A stretch of 64,000 nt of DNA from Balneolaceae bacterium. Its GTDB lineage: Bacteria; Bacteroidota; Rhodothermia; Balneolales; Balneolaceae. The DNA is taken from positions 1 through 64,000 of the forward strand of contig JAEPNO010000009.1 in the NCBI GenBank assembly GCA_017643365.1, in the 5' to 3' direction. A program made the position numbers and the translations under genes. The notes under the pieces were generated by a model, which made no database searches, was not told the origin of the DNA, and saw nothing but the letters and a program-made list of their open reading frames with translations. Below, piece after piece: positions 2,047-53,209 of the stretch. Numbering within the stretch: the stretch's first letter is position 1; the number at the start of each line of letters is the position of its first letter.

Positions 2047-2935
2047 GGTAGGTGCACAAAATGGTTAAAGCTTTTTCGGTGTTTCCGCCTTCAATTTCGA
2101 TTTTTGCCAGGCGATGGATTTCATCTCGAAGTTCGTAGCCTTCAAACTGTTTGTAAGCCGCGGCAACGGTTTGGAATTGCTTGGCTTCGGTAATGTCTTC
2201 TTCGGATGGAAGCTGCTCGATATTTCCTAGCCGACCCAAATTATTGGCCGAAAGCACGGTGCTTTCCTGCACGTGTTTTGGAAGATGATCCACGCCGATG
2301 CCTTTGGTTTGCAGCGGTTTTGGTATTTCGAACAGGGCATCTACATTCGCTCGCGAATACCAATTCGCGCCTAATCGACCAACTAAATCGAGTTTAGTGT
2401 TATCAAGTTTGCCGTTTTCATCCAAAAAATCGGTGTTTAGATGGATTCGTTGAATACGTGCAATCACCAGATTTCCGGCTCCGCCTTCGGTTCCAAGTTC
2501 TATCACCTGATCAACCGTACATTCAAAAGAAACCGGACTTTCTTTCACTCTTGGCGGTTTAATTTTTTCGGATGGAATCTCCGTAAAACCGGCCTTCACA
2601 AATTCGTTTACACCTTTTTCGTACTCGGTGCTCGCCAGCGACATCTGCTCCACCATCGGGTAATTCACTATATTGATGCACACTTCCGGCACTTCTTTGA
2701 TGTTTTCGTAAGTGTGTTTCGTGGTGTTATCCCGGCCGCGACGTGCAGGGGAGAAAATCAGAATCGGCGGGTTGTTCGAAAACACATTGAAAAAGCTGAA
2801 CGGACTCAAATTGATGTTTCCGGCATTGTCGATGGTGCTGGCAAAACAAATCGGGCGAGGCCCAACCGCCGACGTTAGAATGCCTTGCCGTTCCGGGATG
2901 GAAATATCGTATGGATCGAAGGATTTGATGTTCAT
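2039..2935 (-). CDS. Flavin reductase-like FMN-binding split-barrel protein
   Basis: A 298-residue protein of the flavin reductase-like/DIM6-NTAB split-barrel family. The N-terminal half has the family pattern: GPRPICFASTIDNAGN followed by NLSPFSFFNVFSNNPP, then the phosphate-binding KHTYENI segment and a CINIVNYP strand. The C-terminal ~100 residues are an alpha-helical extension not needed for the barrel. Its start overlaps the stop of fahA by 4 bp (ATGA) and its end overlaps aacS by 8 bp, so it is an integral operon member. Its role in tyrosine breakdown is not known to me. It could reduce flavin for a monooxygenase or act as an FMN/haem-binding oxidoreductase. The family call is firm and the substrate is unknown. 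Confidence 0.82.
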   Translation of the reverse strand: MNIKSFDPYDISIPERQGILTSAVGPRPICFASTIDNAGNINLSPFSFFNVFSNNPPILIFSPARRGRDNTTKHTYENIKEVPEVCINIVNYPMVEQMSLASTEYEKGVNEFVKAGFTEIPSEKIKPPRVKESPVSFECTVDQVIELGTEGGAGNLVIARIQRIHLNTDFLDENGKLDNTKLDLVGRLGANWYSRANVDALFEIPKPLQTKGIGVDHLPKHVQESTVLSANNLGRLGNIEQLPSEEDITEAKQFQTVAAAYKQFEGYELRDEIHRLAKIEIEGGNTEKALTILCTYHG

Positions 2936-4161
2936 TTCGCCGGTAATAATTTTGATCGGACTTCACCGAAGCCAACCCGCGTTCCATCTTTTTCGCAATG
3001 ACCTTTCATGGTTACAGTGTCGCCATCGTTCAGGAATTTGCGTTCGCTGCCATCGTTTAAATTCACCGGGTTTTTCCCTGCCCAGGAAAGCTCCAACATT
3101 GAACCATACGAATCCGGTGATTTGCCCGAAATCGTCCCTGACGCCATCATATCACCAATATTTACGTTGCAACCGTTCACGGTATGATGCGCCAATTGCT
3201 GCGCCATGTTCCAGTACATGTACTTGAAATTCGAATTCGAAACCACTGTCGGCTCGCTGCCATCCGGTTCAATTTCTACGGTCAGATTTAGATCGAAATT
3301 CAACGCCCCGTCTGTTTTCAAATAATCGAGAACCGGAGGATCTTGTTCCGGTCCGGCCACTTTAAAAGGCTCAAGAGCTTCCATGGTTACCACCCACGGT
3401 GAAATAGAAGAAGCAAAGCTTTTACCTAAAAACGGTCCGAGCGGCACGTATTCCCATTTCTGTATATCTCGCGCCGACCAATCGTTGAAAAGCACCATCC
3501 CAAAAATATGATCCATTGCGTTTTCAGTAGTAATCTGATCGCCGAGCTCGGTTGGTTTCCCAACGATAAACGCCATCTCCAGTTCAAAATCCATGCGTTG
3601 TGATGGTCCGTAAACCGGATCTCCTTCCGGCGGTTTTGTTTGTCCTTTTGGGCGATGGATATCCACTCCGGAAACCACAATCGACGACGCACGTCCATGA
3701 TAACCCACGGGCAAGTGCTTCCAATTTGGAAGCAGCGCATTTTCGGGATCACGAAACATTTTACCTACGTTGGTGGCATGCTCGATGCTGGAATAGAAAT
3801 CAGTGTAATCGCCTACTTTTACCGGAAGATGCATTTGAACGTCATTCATTGGAATGAGTGCATCAGAATCTTTTAAAGGAGATGAATCATCGCACAAATG
3901 CTCCTGCAATCTAAGACGAACAGCGTTGGTTGTCGGCTTCCCCAAAGCGATGAAGTCATTTAGAAAGTCGTTTTCGAGCACATCGTTGGTAACATTTAGC
4001 CCATCAAAAGCACCTAGTTCTTGGGCAGCACCCAAATCGATCACATAATCTCCGATGGCCACGCCAACGTGTTTTGACCCCCCATTTTTTGAGAAAATTC
4101 CGAATGGAAGATTATGGATTGAAAAGTCAGAATCGGGAGAAATAGTAAGCCAGGTGTTCAT
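2932..4161 (-). CDS. fahA: Fumarylacetoacetase
   Basis: Hydrolyses 4-fumarylacetoacetate to fumarate and acetoacetate, the last step of homogentisate breakdown. At 409 residues it matches the two-domain fumarylacetoacetase length: an SH3-like N-terminal domain to about residue 110, then the FAH fold. Residues known to matter in the mammalian enzyme can be placed: D121 and H128 in YTDFYSSIEHATN, E193/E195 in FELEMAF, D227 in FNDWSARD and K247 in LGKSF. It follows hmgA after a 143-bp gap filled with palindromic repeats and overlaps the next gene by 4 bp. The enzyme call is secure. Confidence 0.96.
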   Translation of the reverse strand: MNTWLTISPDSDFSIHNLPFGIFSKNGGSKHVGVAIGDYVIDLGAAQELGAFDGLNVTNDVLENDFLNDFIALGKPTTNAVRLRLQEHLCDDSSPLKDSDALIPMNDVQMHLPVKVGDYTDFYSSIEHATNVGKMFRDPENALLPNWKHLPVGYHGRASSIVVSGVDIHRPKGQTKPPEGDPVYGPSQRMDFELEMAFIVGKPTELGDQITTENAMDHIFGMVLFNDWSARDIQKWEYVPLGPFLGKSFASSISPWVVTMEALEPFKVAGPEQDPPVLDYLKTDGALNFDLNLTVEIEPDGSEPTVVSNSNFKYMYWNMAQQLAHHTVNGCNVNIGDMMASGTISGKSPDSYGSMLELSWAGKNPVNLNDGSERKFLNDGDTVTMKGHCEKDGTRVGFGEVRSKLLPAK

Positions 4162-4181
4162 TTGTGATATTTTAACGATTG

Positions 4182-4301
4182 GGCCGATTCATGAATCGGC
4201 CGTACGGTTTAATTATTTATAAATCTGTAGGAGCAATTCACGAATTGCACCTACGATTTGATTGTCAAATTTTAGTTGGTCGATTCACGAATCGATCGTA
4301 C
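4182..4301. repeat. Three REP-like palindromes in tandem
   Basis: The gap between fahA and hmgA contains three related palindromes. At 4182-4201 is a perfect 20-bp palindrome with arms GGCCGATTCA/TGAATCGGCC. At 4227-4254 are arms GTAGG and GCAATTC around AC. At 4280-4295 is TCGATTC-AC-GAATCGA. All share the ATTCAyGAAT core, and at least two end in GTAC or CTAC. They look like repetitive extragenic palindromes, possibly able to fold in the operon mRNA. Confidence 0.75.
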
Positions 4302-4304
4302 AGA

Positions 4305-5465
4305 TCATTTATCCAGCCAGGATTGGTAATACACGCCGTCATCAATGCGCAGTGCACTTTCGGTGACTTGCAACGGCTTGAAGGTATCTACCATTACGGC
4401 GTATTCATCGGTTCCCTTTTTGCCGATGCTCGCTTCGTAGGCTCCCGGGTGCGGTCCGTGTGGGATGCCCGCCGGATGCAGCGAAATGTAGCCTTCTTCA
4501 ACGTGATTTCGGCTCATGAAATCGCCTTCGGCATAGTAAATCACCTCATCCGAATCTATGTTCGAGTGATTGTATGGCGCCGGAATGGCCTTCGGGTGAT
4601 AATCGTACAAACGAGGCACAAACGAGCAAACCACAAACGCGGAAGTCTCGAAAGTTTGATGCACCGGTGGCGGTTGATGAACCCGCCCTGTAATCGGCTC
4701 GAAATTATAAATCGAAAAGCCATATGGGAAATTGTATCCATCCCAACCAATCACATCAAACGGATGCGAAGCGTAAGTTAGTTGGTGAATCATCCCCTGC
4801 TTTTTAATCTTGATCAGGAATTCGCCTTTTTCGTCGTGGGTTTCCAATTCGGTCGGAAGCTTCAAATCACGTTCGCAGTACGGCGAGTGCTCCAGATATT
4901 GCCCAAACCAGTTTCGATAACGTTTGGGAGAGTAAATCGGCACGTTCGATTCGGTGATAAAATGCCGGTTGTTCTCATCGTTAAAGGAAATCTGATAAAT
5001 CACCCCGCGTGGAATCAACAGGTAATCGCCGGGCACAAATTCGATGTTTCCGATAAAAGTTCGGAGGGTACCGCTTCCTTTGTGGATATAAATCAGCTCG
5101 TCGGCATCGGTGTTTTTGTAGAAATATTCCGTGAGCGATTTCTTCGGAGCTGCCAGATGCAGAGTCACATCGCTGTTGGTTAAAATCGCTTCGCGAGCAT
5201 CCAGATAATCGTCTTTGGGAGCAACATCGAGCCCTTTCAGCATCATCGATTTCATGTTATTGCCCACGGCCACTTTCGGCGAAACGTCGATGGCAGACCC
5301 AACTTCTGCAACCATGGTTGGTCGGTGAATGTGGTACGAAAGCGTAGACATCCCATCGAAACCGATGGTGCCAAACAGTTGCTCGTAGTATAAATTTCCG
5401 TCCGGTTTGCGGAATTGCGTATGCCGCTTGGGCGGGATTTTTCCTAAGCGATGATAAATAGGCAT
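4305..5465 (-). CDS. hmgA: Homogentisate 1,2-dioxygenase
   Basis: Fe(II) ring-cleavage dioxygenase converting homogentisate to maleylacetoacetate. The 386-residue cupin protein is of the short bacterial type. Likely iron ligands are H300 and E307 in NHSNIDSDEV and H336 in GIPHGPHPG. The N-terminal half holds the degenerate cupin with HKGSGTLRTFIG and PGDYLLIPRG. First gene of the leftward tyrosine operon. Its start lies 69 bp from an imperfect palindrome at 5534-5549 that also precedes hppD at 49 kb, so both are probably controlled by one repressor. No maleylacetoacetate isomerase follows it. Confidence 0.95.
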   Translation of the reverse strand: MPIYHRLGKIPPKRHTQFRKPDGNLYYEQLFGTIGFDGMSTLSYHIHRPTMVAEVGSAIDVSPKVAVGNNMKSMMLKGLDVAPKDDYLDAREAILTNSDVTLHLAAPKKSLTEYFYKNTDADELIYIHKGSGTLRTFIGNIEFVPGDYLLIPRGVIYQISFNDENNRHFITESNVPIYSPKRYRNWFGQYLEHSPYCERDLKLPTELETHDEKGEFLIKIKKQGMIHQLTYASHPFDVIGWDGYNFPYGFSIYNFEPITGRVHQPPPVHQTFETSAFVVCSFVPRLYDYHPKAIPAPYNHSNIDSDEVIYYAEGDFMSRNHVEEGYISLHPAGIPHGPHPGAYEASIGKKGTDEYAVMVDTFKPLQVTESALRIDDGVYYQSWLDK

Positions 5466-5533
5466 GAGTCTCTTCTTTAAGTTGGTTAGGCAATGCTGAA
5501 TTATATCGAATTCGAAGCATTAAGGCAGAAAAA

Positions 5534-5551
5534 AGTTGTTATAGCAACTAA
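5534..5551. promoter_or_regulatory. Putative operator shared with hppD
   Basis: The sequence AGTTGTTATAGCAACTAA is an imperfect palindrome (AGTTG...CAACT around a TATA centre). The identical 18 bp occur at 49060-49077 in front of hppD. It sits between hmgA and the antitoxin gene. Size and symmetry are those of MarR-type operators. That it controls the hmgA operon is inferred from the exact match upstream of the functionally linked hppD. Confidence 0.7.
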
Positions 5552-5822: not shown

Positions 5823-6116
5823 ATGGCAAACTATCAATTAATTATTGATAGAAGGGCTATCGCTGAAATACAATCAGCCATCGATTATTACAATGAAGTT
5901 CAAAGTGGACTTGGCTTAGAGTTTGAAAATGAACTGAACGAGAAACTTACTTTTTTATCTGAACAACCATTTTTCCAAATACGATACAAAGACGTTAGGT
6001 GCTTACCTTTAATTCGGTTTCCTTTTATGGTGCACTATCAAGTTGACAATCCTCAAGAAAGAGTAATTGTTCGAGCAGTACTCAATACACGTCGTGATCC
6101 AAAATCTTGGTTGTAA
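5823..6116 (+). CDS. ParE/RelE family toxin
   Basis: A 97-residue protein with the RelE/ParE fold pattern. It has an N-terminal strand (YQLIIDRRAIAEIQSAIDYY), a helical hairpin containing GLGLEFENELNEKLTFLSEQP, and a C-terminal sheet (RCLPLIRFPFMVHYQV, VIVRAVLNTRRDP). The RRDPKSW ending is typical of the ParE-like branch. It starts immediately after the antitoxin stop. ParE members poison gyrase and RelE members cleave mRNA on ribosomes; the sequence alone does not decide which applies. Confidence 0.86.
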   Translation: MANYQLIIDRRAIAEIQSAIDYYNEVQSGLGLEFENELNEKLTFLSEQPFFQIRYKDVRCLPLIRFPFMVHYQVDNPQERVIVRAVLNTRRDPKSWL

Positions 6117-6163
6117 CTTCTCATTGCGAATTATCTATATTTGGGGAGTTTAAAAATTCACTC

Positions 6164-6721
6164 ATGAGCTCAAAAGACAAACCTAAATTAGGTTCAATAA
6201 AACGTGGGGTTTCCGATATGTTTCGGACTTCCTATCGTACCCACATCGAACTAAGCGCCATTGCCGATAACAAATCGAACATCATGATATCCATTAACGG
6301 GATTATCATTTCGATCATCATTGCGTCCATCTCTCCAAAAATCGATTCCAATCCCTGGTTGCTAATCCCAACGGCAGTGTTGCTGCTCACCTGTTTGGGC
6401 TCGATGGTGTATGCGGTGTTGTCTGCTCGTCCGCGAGTGAGTAAAGAGCCGGTTACTTTAGACGACGTTCGGGCGAACAAAGCCAACATTCTCTTCTTCG
6501 GAAATTTCCACACGATGGCCCGCGCCGATTATGTGGAAGGCATGGAGGAGCTCATGCAAGATTCTACTCGACTTTACGACAACATGGCCCGCGACATCCA
6601 CGGTCTTGGCGTGGTGCTTGCAAAAAAGTACACGTTACTCCGCATTTCCTACAACATTTTTATGCTTGGGCTGATTCTCTCGGTGTTCAGCTTTATCGGA
6701 GTGTTTGCGCTGGTGGTTTGA
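6164..6721 (+). CDS. PycTM-domain (Pycsar effector-type, DUF5706) membrane protein
   Basis: A 185-residue protein from the ATG at 6164. An upstream GTG-type start at 6107 would overlap the toxin gene and adds an unlikely extension. The N-terminus has the PycTM/DUF5706 hallmark: FRTSYRTHIELSAIADNKSN followed by a first membrane helix (about 41-58). A second helix follows at about 62-90, then a soluble helical segment (HTMARADYVEGMEELM, LYDNMARDIHGLGVVL) and a third helix at the C-terminus. In Pycsar defence, proteins of this kind open the membrane in response to cCMP or cUMP made by a partner cyclase. No cyclase is adjacent here, so it is an orphan. Its last ~35 bp are duplicated 479 bp downstream. 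Confidence 0.8.
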   Translation: MSSKDKPKLGSIKRGVSDMFRTSYRTHIELSAIADNKSNIMISINGIIISIIIASISPKIDSNPWLLIPTAVLLLTCLGSMVYAVLSARPRVSKEPVTLDDVRANKANILFFGNFHTMARADYVEGMEELMQDSTRLYDNMARDIHGLGVVLAKKYTLLRISYNIFMLGLILSVFSFIGVFALVV

Positions 6722-48677: not shown

Positions 48678-49059
48678 TTTTGTTGCTCTCGTTCCAATGC
48701 TCCTGCTTCCATTTATAAAAGTAGCACATTCAATCATCTGTCAGACGGACTCAAGCCGTCAGACAGATTCAATTCATAATAGTCACTCAGAACGAAGTGA
48801 TGAGTCTTCACAAACTAGTTTTGGTTGGACTGAACTGTGAAGATCCATCGCATTCGCTCTTGATGACTTGCCTACCAAGCTTTAATCTTGGTCGAGGCGC
48901 TTCTTCACTTTGCAACTCTGTCACTTAGTAACTTTGTGCCTTTGCCCCTCTGGTTTTTTGGCTAATCACTGGAGATTCCGGATCAAGTCCGGAATGACGA
49001 CTTTAAAATAAAATCTTAATATAAAAGCGCTTTTCCTAGTCCTTCAGAAAGCTTAAATT
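48678..49059. repeat. Repeat-rich gene-free stretch before hppD
   Basis: Holds several repetitive palindromes. 48736-48768 has 13-bp arms ATCTGTCAGACGG/CCGTCAGACAGAT with one mismatch and a 7-nt loop. 48780-48813 is a second copy of the TAGTCACTC repeat. 48975-48995 has perfect 8-bp arms ATTCCGGA/TCCGGAAT around TCAAG, a motif common in bacterial intergenic repeats. No gene is supported. Confidence 0.7.
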
Positions 49060-49077
49060 AGTTGTTATAGCAACTAA
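49060..49077. promoter_or_regulatory. Putative operator upstream of hppD
   Basis: AGTTGTTATAGCAACTAA, identical over 18 bp to 5534-5551 upstream of hmgA. It ends 23 bp before the hppD ATG, where bound protein could block transcription or its start. Regulator unknown; a MarR-type protein is a reasonable guess from motif form. Confidence 0.7.
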
Positions 49078-49100: not shown

Positions 49101-50225
49101 ATGGAAACCCTGACTGATCCTGTTGTAGACCAAGAACAAGACTTTATGCCGATTCTCGGCACCGATTACGTAGAATTTTATGTAAGCAACGCCAAGCAAG
49201 CCGCTCATTTTTATAAATCAGCATTTGGCTTTCAGTCGCTAGCCTATGCCGGATTAGAAACCGGATTGAAAGACCGCGAATCGTATGTGGTGGTTCAGGA
49301 TAAAATCCGCCTCGTGTTAACTTCACCACTACACAGTGGCACCGATATTGGAAGGCACATCGATCAGCATGGCGATGGCGTAAAAGTGATTGCCCTTTGG
49401 GTAGAAGATGCGGCTTATGCCTATAACGAGGCTGTAAAACGTGGAGCGGAATCTTACTTCGAGCCGGTAACCGAATCGGATGACCATGGTAAAGTGGTTC
49501 GAGCAGGAATTCACACCTACGGCGATACCGTTCACATTTTTGTAGAGCGCAAAGATTACGAAGGCACTTTCCTACCCGGTTACAGAAAATGGGATTCGCA
49601 TTACAATCCAGAAACGATTGGGCTTAAATACGTAGATCACATGGTGGGTAACGTTGAACTTGGGGCTATGAATACTTGGGTTAAGTGGTACGAAGATGTA
49701 CTCGGTTTCAAGCAAATCTTATCCTTTGATGACAAAGACATTTCCACCGAATACACTGCTCTAATGAGTAAGGTGATGAGTAATGGAAATGGTCGAATCA
49801 AATTCCCGATTAACGAGCCGGCCGCCGGTTTAAAGAAATCACAAATTGATGAGTACATCGACTTTTACGAAGGTGCCGGTGTACAGCATGTAGCCGTTGC
49901 AACCGATGACATCGTGCATACTGTAACCGAGCTCCGCAATCGAGGCATCGAGTTTATCACCGTTCCAACTACTTATTATGATGTATTGGAAGAGCGAGTA
50001 GGAAAAATCGACGAGCCAATCGACAAACTGAAAGAACTTGGAATCTTGGTTGATCGCGATGATGAAGGCTACTTGCTTCAGATTTTCACTCGTACGCTTC
50101 AAGCTCGACCAACGATGTTTTTTGAAATCATCCAGCGCAAAGGAGCCACTTCTTTTGGTAAAGGAAATTTCAAAGCACTATTCGAAGCGATTGAACGCGA
50201 GCAAGAAATGCGCGGAACGCTTTAA
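49101..50225 (+). CDS. hppD: 4-hydroxyphenylpyruvate dioxygenase
   Basis: Fe(II) enzyme turning 4-hydroxyphenylpyruvate into homogentisate, the substrate of hmgA at 4.3-5.5 kb. 374 residues, normal length, two vicinal-oxygen-chelate halves. Iron ligands H180 (KYVDHMVGNV), H263 (GVQHVAVATDD) and E342 (FFEIIQRKG) are present, as is the C-terminal lid GNFKALFEAIE. It has its own terminator downstream and the shared operator upstream. It is 44 kb from hmgA but tied to it by that operator. Confidence 0.96.
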   Translation: METLTDPVVDQEQDFMPILGTDYVEFYVSNAKQAAHFYKSAFGFQSLAYAGLETGLKDRESYVVVQDKIRLVLTSPLHSGTDIGRHIDQHGDGVKVIALWVEDAAYAYNEAVKRGAESYFEPVTESDDHGKVVRAGIHTYGDTVHIFVERKDYEGTFLPGYRKWDSHYNPETIGLKYVDHMVGNVELGAMNTWVKWYEDVLGFKQILSFDDKDISTEYTALMSKVMSNGNGRIKFPINEPAAGLKKSQIDEYIDFYEGAGVQHVAVATDDIVHTVTELRNRGIEFITVPTTYYDVLEERVGKIDEPIDKLKELGILVDRDDEGYLLQIFTRTLQARPTMFFEIIQRKGATSFGKGNFKALFEAIEREQEMRGTL

Positions 50226-50831: not shown

Positions 50832-51254
50832 TCAACCTTTCGAATAGCTATTGAACACTTTATCGAGCAAAGTACGCAGTTGAGTGTATTCATCTTCGTT
50901 GATGTTTTCCCAGCCTAATTCGCGAGAAGCATACACGTGTTCTTGGGCTCGCTTTGTTTCTGATTTACCGTTTTCGGTGAGTTGAACAAGGTATCGGCGA
51001 CCATCGTCGGGGTCTTGGCTTCGGGTGACGAACCCTTTCTTTTGTAGTAAATCGATGATTCGCGAAACGGTGTGTTTATCCTTAAAGCTCTCGCTGGCTA
51101 AATCGGCCTGACTCAAAGTTGATCCGTTGAGTTTCGATAAAATCACCCATTGTTCGGGCGTAATATTTATGCCTGCTTTTTTAAATCTATTGATCAGATC
51201 CTGCCGAACCACTTTGTAGGTTCGATCGATGTACACTCCGATTTCTTTTTTCAT
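50832..51254 (-). CDS. MarR family transcriptional regulator
   Basis: A 140-residue winged-helix regulator: dimerisation helix, then TPEQWVILSKLNGSTLSQADLA (recognition region), HTVSRIIDLLQKKGFVTRS and the wing DPDDGRRYLVQLTENG typical of MarR. It overlaps the cyclase gene by 4 bp, so the two form one operon with the palindromic candidate operator at 53226-53249 upstream. The ligand is unknown. It is the only MarR protein in the window and lies near hppD, so it is a candidate (unproven) for the AGTTG-type operator. Confidence 0.93.
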   Translation of the reverse strand: MKKEIGVYIDRTYKVVRQDLINRFKKAGINITPEQWVILSKLNGSTLSQADLASESFKDKHTVSRIIDLLQKKGFVTRSQDPDDGRRYLVQLTENGKSETKRAQEHVYASRELGWENINEDEYTQLRTLLDKVFNSYSKG

Positions 51255-53209
51255 GCATTCATCATTTTCAACGTTGGGAGCCCAATCCGTTCTCTAACCT
51301 GTTGGTAACGTGGATCTGAAACCAAGTTCTTAAAAGGTATCATAGAATCAAAAAATATCATTGCGCCAAGGCCTTTATCAATGCCTTCGTTAATATAATT
51401 GAAGGCTGTATCAGCATCACCCATTCCCGCATATACACAGGCAAAATCGAGTGATAAATCCAGGTGAGGTTTTTCTTCGCTTCGTTTTTTAATTTTTTCG
51501 ATGTTTTTGATCGCACCTTCCATATCGCCCTGAATGGCTGCTATGTATCCCAAAAATGCACCTCCGGTATTAGGTTCTTTAACCAGTTTTAAATACTTAC
51601 GTGCGTATTTAAGGGCGTTATCGAAGTCTCCTTTTTCCAGATAAATCATCGAAATACCTTCGAAAGCTGCTCTGAATAGCGGATCTAATTCCAGTATCTC
51701 GTGAAACAATGCTTCACTGTTTTCATAATCGCCAAGCAACACATATGCTCGAGCTAATTCTAACTTTGCAGGTAGCGATAAAGGATCGATTTGACAAGCC
51801 GCTTTATTGTGATGAATCATTCGATCAAACTCGCTTGTTGCCCGGTATAAATAGCCAAGCCCAATTCGTGCATCTAAATATTCAGGTTCAAGCGTAATCG
51901 CCTTTCGTAAATTGGCTTCAGCTACTTCAAAATTCCACTTCGAAAATAAATTTACTAAGCCAAGTGCCGCATAAGATTCTGCCCGGGTGCTGTTTAACTC
52001 AACCGATTTAATGGCATACTCTTCGGCCTGCTTATAAGCCTCGTTGGCTGGTAAATGACCTATCGCACCTAAAAAACTATAGCAATTTGCTAGTGCTGAA
52101 TATGCGTTGGTATATGTTGTGCAATAGTTTATGGCATGCTCGAAAACTGTAATGGCTTTACGAACCGACTCGGGCGTTCGCTTATTCCAATGGTATAGTC
52201 CTTCCAAATAATGATTGTAGGCTACTACACTATCGGTGGATGCCTCGTATAATTTACCCGAAGAATCGAAGAAGGAATCTGCTACTAATTTTTCGGCGAT
52301 CTTTTTTGCTATTTCATCCTGTACACCAAAAATATCCTTCATTTCACCGTCGAAATTCTCCGACCAGATATGAAATCCATCATCGGCGTTAATCAACTGT
52401 GCAGTAACCCTGATGCGGTCTCCGGCTTTTCGAACGCTACCTTCTAGAATCGCAGCTACGTTTAATTCTTTAGCTATTTGGCGGATGTCCTTTGACGTGT
52501 TTTTATAAGCAAAAACCGATGTTCGGGACGTCACCGAAAGATCACCAACTTTTACGAGCGCATTGATAATTTCTTCGGTTATCCCATCGCTAAAATATTC
52601 ATCGGCCGGATCTCCCGAGAAGTTCGCAAAAGGCAGCACCGCTACGCTATTTTGATAAGAACCCGTAATCTCTTGAATGTGCCGTTGCTCGGGCACTTTA
52701 ATGCCATCGTTTGCAAGGGCAAAAATACCTGTGGTTTGAAACACGTTTTTCAATTCGTGTTCGCCAAAAGCCTCAACGCGTATTCCCGGGTGGTTTTTGA
52801 TCTCTTCAAACACTTTGCCGGACATCATCACAGAACCTGGAATCCCTAAACCCTGAACGCGAGCCGCTAAGTTAACTGCATCCCCAAAAATGCCTTCATC
52901 ATCATACACAACATCGCCTAAGTGGATGCCGATTCGCAACGGTACTTCCGGATCTTTTTGCAGTTCTAATTGGATACTTCTCGCAGCATTCACCGCTTCG
53001 ATGGCGCTACCAAACATGCTTAAAGTCCCATCCCCATAATACTGCATTACTTGTCCGCGATGCTCTGCGATGTAGTTATCTACCACCTTCCGTTGGCGAT
53101 CGCGCAGCTCTTTTGCCAATGCTTCATCCTGCTGCATCAATTTGGTATAGCCAACCATGTCGGCAAACATGATGGCAGCAAGTAATCGTATGTTTCTGTT
53201 CTCGGGCAT
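51251..53209 (-). CDS. Class III nucleotidyl cyclase with TolB-like and TPR regions
   Basis: A 652-residue soluble protein. Residues 1-170 form a class III cyclase domain: metal aspartates D17 (FADMVGYT) and D60 (YYGDGTLSMF), and FGDAVNLAARV for the transition-state Asn/Arg. The usual base-selecting lysine position reads Gln56 and the neighbouring Asp position reads Gly, so substrate choice is uncertain. Next is a TolB-like segment (VAVLPFANFSGDPADEYFSDG, about 188-300), then many TPR units to the C-terminus. Comparable architecture is common in cyclases of soil bacteria. Starts at ATG 53209. Confidence 0.9.
   Translation of the reverse strand: MPENRNIRLLAAIMFADMVGYTKLMQQDEALAKELRDRQRKVVDNYIAEHRGQVMQYYGDGTLSMFGSAIEAVNAARSIQLELQKDPEVPLRIGIHLGDVVYDDEGIFGDAVNLAARVQGLGIPGSVMMSGKVFEEIKNHPGIRVEAFGEHELKNVFQTTGIFALANDGIKVPEQRHIQEITGSYQNSVAVLPFANFSGDPADEYFSDGITEEIINALVKVGDLSVTSRTSVFAYKNTSKDIRQIAKELNVAAILEGSVRKAGDRIRVTAQLINADDGFHIWSENFDGEMKDIFGVQDEIAKKIAEKLVADSFFDSSGKLYEASTDSVVAYNHYLEGLYHWNKRTPESVRKAITVFEHAINYCTTYTNAYSALANCYSFLGAIGHLPANEAYKQAEEYAIKSVELNSTRAESYAALGLVNLFSKWNFEVAEANLRKAITLEPEYLDARIGLGYLYRATSEFDRMIHHNKAACQIDPLSLPAKLELARAYVLLGDYENSEALFHEILELDPLFRAAFEGISMIYLEKGDFDNALKYARKYLKLVKEPNTGGAFLGYIAAIQGDMEGAIKNIEKIKKRSEEKPHLDLSLDFACVYAGMGDADTAFNYINEGIDKGLGAMIFFDSMIPFKNLVSDPRYQQVRERIGLPTLKMMNA

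Follow-up and report, generated by a model that had tools for sequence, protein, structure and literature searches.

A palindrome shared by hmgA and hppD as the probable operator of a MarR-family regulator of the homogentisate pathway in a Balneolaceae bacterium

The presence of one 18-bp word ahead of both hmgA and hppD in a Balneolaceae bacterium raises the question of whether the two genes answer to a common regulator, and to which one. In the window, i.e. the whole stretch of 64,000 nucleotides analysed, AGTTGTTATAGCAACTAA precedes hmgA at 5534-5551 and hppD at 49060-49077, identical base for base, which bears out what a sequence-only reading of this DNA had claimed. Both sites are very probably operators of one MarR-family repressor, a dimer of the protein encoded at 50832-51254, which would coordinate the homogentisate pathway from two places and be relieved by a metabolite.

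The word is specific to these two places. The whole genome (3.77 Mb, 51 contigs) contains two exact copies, those before hmgA and hppD, and the genome-wide search that the earlier reading had called for thus returned no other exact match; by pattern search the next best match has 2 mismatches and the remainder 3. Within the window no further site with up to 3 mismatches was found, apart from the overlapping match that the hppD palindrome gives on the minus strand, the number of such matches expected from window shuffles being 0.08. The longest word common to two simulated 200-bp regions of the window composition never exceeded 14 bases in 5000 trials.

AGTTGTTATAGCAACTAA forms the core of a 20-bp palindrome, TTAGTTGTTATAACAACTAA. 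The symmetric unit at hppD comprises all 20 bp (TTAGTTGTTATAGCAACTAA, 49058-49077), with the edge of its 16-mer 25 bp from the ATG. The operator-like palindrome ahead of hmgA covers 5532-5551, with a 16-bp core, AGTTGTTATAGCAACT, at 5534-5549 whose edge lies ∼67 bp from the ATG; here the symmetry is broken by the outer two bases (TTAGTTGCTATAACAACTTT on the gene side). As the two genes lie on opposite strands, hmgA minus and hppD plus, the sites are oppositely oriented relative to their genes, as reverse complements, and the identity between the two copies reflects the palindrome. A position weight matrix built from fifteen conserved sites gives 30.8 bits for the hppD site and 28.0 bits for the hmgA site, the genome-wide scans having been run by pattern and not with the full matrix. 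Scores of at least 26 bits are expected 0.006 times per genome and of 24 bits 0.02 times, and none of the other matches in this genome that were scored exceeded 20 bits.

Several weaker candidates were discarded. A match with 1 mismatch, AGTTGGTAGAGCAACT, recurs in many genomes and was read, by sequence, as the D-arm of a tRNA gene. The weak matches at C50:99979 (12.9 bits), at C51:71372 (15.7 bits, between glycine-transporter and ParE-like genes), at G007:C1:1046970 (21.2 bits, within an ORF) and at G025:C3:241328 (12.8 bits, within a long ORF) did not recur before the orthologous genes and were taken as chance.

The genes behind the two sites belong to one pathway. The product of hppD (49101-50225, plus strand) is 4-hydroxyphenylpyruvate dioxygenase, which yields homogentisate (TIGR01263, 457.7 bits against a cut-off of 277). 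The hmgA gene (4305-5465, minus strand) encodes what appears to be a short, divergent protein of the homogentisate 1,2-dioxygenase type; it passes the Pfam cut-off for PF20510 (HgmA_N) and reaches 67.5 bits with TIGR01015, so far under the cut-off of 510.75 that its name rests on the HgmA_N domain and on the operon with fumarylacetoacetase. Downstream of hmgA, also on the minus strand, follow fahA for fumarylacetoacetase (2932-4161; TIGR01266, 599.4 bits), a gene for a flavin-reductase-like protein (2039-2935; PF01613 and synteny), which overlaps fahA by 4 bp, and a gene for acetoacetate--CoA ligase (91-2046; TIGR01217, 802 bits), an enzyme activating acetoacetate, an end product of the pathway. 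The four genes share one strand and close spacing, and their order is kept in relatives. The phhA gene of this genome (G000, contig C11) has no operator site within 8 kb and was ruled out as a third member; the regulon in this genome is therefore restricted to the homogentisate pathway.

Relatives were searched for hppD, hmgA, the MarR protein and the motif, and 36 hppD-bearing Balneolales genomes were compared. An orthologue of the MarR protein (64-100% identity) is encoded in ten Balneolaceae genomes. The palindrome precedes hppD in all ten, the edge of the 16-mer being 12-29 bp from the ATG, and hmgA in nine, where this distance is 59-67 bp, amid flanks that have diverged beyond alignment. 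The conserved sites score 23.5-32.9 bits with the matrix made from fifteen of them. The marR gene is linked to hppD in most genomes; in G002 and G007 it has been relocated away from hppD and the sites are still present, as expected for control in trans. The one genome lacking the hmgA site, G019, has both the MarR protein and the hppD site. Beside its hmgA (locus L161, G019:C20) lies a divergent TetR-family gene at 3618-4196, with a TetR-like word, GAACAAGCGTTC, in the gap, which suggests a swap of regulator.

The site is missing where the MarR protein is missing. In 25 other members of the order, none of which has a close MarR orthologue, no site was found in the hppD locus or within about 1.5 kb on either side of it, even at 7 bits. 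The hppD of G017 is of the same lineage as the site-bearing ones, yet this genome has neither MarR orthologue nor sites, so that the site near hppD is absent in 26 out of 26 order members examined that are without this MarR. Within the single genus g17, G060 and G064 have the MarR protein and both sites, and six other species have neither a MarR orthologue nor an hppD site. In the hppD tree, which is weakly supported, the genes accompanied by MarR and site fall into what is essentially a single lineage (one label change), and the genome counts are therefore not independent events. The co-occurrence of MarR and site comes close to one evolutionary event, plus the exception of G017, and a regulator carried along as a passenger in the cassette could account for part of the pattern.

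The protein proposed to bind both sites, pointed out by Pfam, an AlphaFold model and its co-occurrence with the sites, is a regulator of 140 aa encoded at 50832-51254 on the minus strand. It exceeds the Pfam cut-offs of PF01047 (48.7 vs 24.6) and PF12802 (48.5 vs 27). Its AlphaFold model (mean pLDDT 73.7) displays the MarR-type helix order, with the recognition helix and a two-strand beta wing in place; the best PDB matches of the model are MftR with operator DNA, MarR with operator DNA, and MexR. In Balneolaceae marR has a conserved neighbour, the gene for a class III nucleotide cyclase/TPR protein (51251-53209, minus strand; assigned by Pfam), whose last 4 bp here coincide with the marR start, so that marR is probably co-transcribed behind it. 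Autoregulation was considered and rejected, as the operator site was not found before marR in eight orthologues; marR is probably transcribed by read-through from the cyclase/TPR gene.

Indications of how the sites might act come from their position relative to putative promoter elements. A scan with the sigma-70 consensus gave no promoter reading into hppD or hmgA, so the promoters were placed by conservation. A putative −10 box of hmgA, TATAAT, is located at 5500-5505 (minus strand), 28 nt downstream of the operator core, and a TATAAT, TATACT or TATCAT box recurs at 28-30 nt in nine out of nine genomes; if this box is right, the centre of the operator is near −48. At hppD, a putative −10/−7-like box, TAAATT (49054-49059, plus strand), abuts the operator, and an AT-rich box of the TAnnWT kind (TAAATT, TATTTT, TATAAT, TACATT(T)) does so in all ten genomes.

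In the mechanism proposed here, the MarR dimer would occupy TTAGTTG-N6-CAACTAA when substrate is lacking. At hppD the operator starts directly after the TAnnWT box, and a dimer bound there would cover the transcription start. At hmgA, where the TATAAT-type box lies 28-30 nt past the operator, the bound dimer would sit at the promoter's upstream edge, immediately before the probable −33/−35 region, and would hinder the entry of RNA polymerase. During tyrosine degradation an aromatic acid of the pathway would bind the dimer, which would then leave the DNA; judging from MarR biology, 4-hydroxyphenylpyruvate or homogentisate may be guessed as the most likely ligand. On release, hppD and the hmgA-fahA-flavin reductase-acetoacetate--CoA ligase operon would be expressed together.

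A second perfect palindrome, AAAAGCGCTTTT, lies 66 bp before hppD, at 49023-49034. About a third of the 36 genomes have this word, with no more than one mismatch, 50-73 bp before hppD; it occurs in both hppD lineages and independently of the MarR site, and is possibly the operator of another regulator or a part of the promoter.

Other explanations of the shared word have to be weighed against that of a MarR repressor. The idea that it stems from chance, a dispersed repeat or an RNA hairpin, and not from protein binding, draws on the ability of palindromes to form hairpins and on the two copies in one window, which could be a repeat. It is scarcely credible, given that the genome holds only these two copies, that the same two places are occupied in nine genomes, that the chance expectation at 26 bits does not exceed 0.006 per genome and that no terminator-like sites were found; moreover, the hppD copy, as it abuts the −10-like box, would not be transcribed in full to form a leader hairpin. 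It is likewise improbable that the sites are operators of another transcription factor encoded elsewhere, with the linked MarR a bystander. The site tracks this MarR across the 36 hppD-bearing Balneolales genomes and also within one genus, in Bacteroidota marR lies close to hppD with no cyclase/TPR gene beside it, and the winged-helix family and the form of the palindrome fit each other, although marR is not beside hppD in G002 and G007, travels with the cyclase/TPR gene, and is accompanied in this genome by further genes for MarR-type proteins, and although binding is inferred.

The sign of the regulation is a separate matter. Most catabolic MarR proteins repress, although some members of the family are activators, and it is unlikely that the present protein binds the sites and activates, or acts with opposite sign at the two promoters. 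Such an action would suit the hmgA operator, which lies upstream of the conserved TATAAT-type box with its centre near −48, a position less typical of a blocking repressor and used by activators too; the hppD site, however, lies immediately against the −10-like box and would mask the start point, which fits blocking. Control of both sites by one MarR protein, the one that the sequence-only reading had named, is supported by its co-occurrence with the motif, the linkage to hppD and the passage of the motif together with MarR into Bacteroidota. The earlier test in relatives with the same genes points the same way, the motif being kept with the MarR orthologue at hppD (10/10) and hmgA (9/10) and absent without it.

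The regulators known for the homogentisate pathway are HmgR (IclR family), HmgQ (LysR family), TyrR/PhhR and HmgS (MarR family) (PMC5343134). HmgS is a MarR regulator of hmgAB in Alteromonadales, predicted by comparative genomics from 3 genomes and 6 sites (PMC5343134). The present protein resembles it, when compared by description, in its family, in its small local homogentisate-pathway regulon and as a non-orthologous replacement of TyrR, HmgR and HmgQ; it differs in its phylum and in its targets, hppD and the four-gene hmgA operon. The HmgS-like arrangement of hmg genes under nearby sites is found here ahead of hmgA and hppD, as judged by conservation alone. HmgR of Pseudomonas putida, for which homogentisate is the anti-repressor (PMC5343134), follows the logic proposed here, that of a dedicated hmg-operon repressor relieved by a pathway metabolite, but belongs to the IclR family, unrelated to MarR. 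HpaR (TIGR02337) and Saro_0803 (PMC10046596) share with the present protein the fold, the winged-helix DNA-binding domain and the local control of aromatic catabolism; it is nevertheless a member of neither group, since it scores 43.9 bits against the HpaR equivalog cut-off of 121.2 and 53.7 bits against that of the Saro_0803 equivalog (NF053777, 200). No description of a MarR regulator of the homogentisate pathway in Balneolota or Bacteroidota was found among the open-access papers searched. The operator pair exemplifies a common form of regulation in a phylum that has received little study, and the assignment of factor to operator appears well supported on sequence grounds. For aromatic amino acid catabolism in Balneolota it supplies a concrete pair of transcription factor and operator that can be tested, and the protein could serve as a sensor of homogentisate-pathway metabolites.

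Among the named genomes scanned with the MarR alignment, orthologues with 58% identity were found in Ekhidna lutea DSM 19307 and the Cytophagaceae MAG ECT2AJA-110-C. In both, marR lies within ∼4 kb of an hppD with 79% identity, and the site is directly ahead of that hppD (22.1 and 20.6 bits). As marR has no cyclase/TPR neighbour in these Bacteroidota, the partner common to both phyla is hppD. The Ekhidna hmgA has a candidate site of 26 bits, ∼131 bp before its ATG; it falls within the 3′ end of the gene ahead of hmgA and has no counterpart in the sister genome. In a search of 390 genomes of Ekhidna's order, relatives of the MarR protein (∼33-46%) were recovered in 133 further genomes; those of ∼40% adjoin hppD, fumarylacetoacetase or phenylalanine 4-monooxygenase (phhA) genes in 8 of 29 loci read, whereas for other MarR paralogues the count is 0 of 31. 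The distant Cytophagales MarR loci yielded no clear version of the motif. It is conceivable, if tentative, that the protein belongs to a broad unnamed clade of regulators of phenylalanine/tyrosine degradation spanning Bacteroidota and Balneolota, which passed between the phyla in the company of hppD and its operator and later acquired the hmgA operon as a second target by operator gain. The protein may act as a seed for naming the MarR clade beside tyrosine-degradation genes in Bacteroidota.

In the same two Bacteroidota genomes, TTAGTTGCATTAACAACTA (∼20 bits, flanks diverged) precedes a gene for a pyridoxal-dependent decarboxylase related to tyrosine/serine/histidine decarboxylases (loci L216 and L220), a possible third regulon member there.

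Some neighbouring genes of the window deserve mention. The hmgA operator and a PycTM-type membrane gene (6107-6721; Pycsar-effector-like, PF18967), which adjoins hmgA divergently, are separated by a small ORF of 97 aa (5823-6116), itself directly preceded by another small ORF. The 97-aa ORF has no PADLOC match; judging by sequence, the two may represent a toxin-antitoxin pair. Both are absent in G014, G025 and G060, where hmgA and the PycTM gene are directly divergent. The class III cyclase/TPR gene beside marR shows a weak match to Pycsar cyclases, and its linkage to marR, like that of the PycTM gene to hmgA, is conserved in the Balneolaceae having this cluster.
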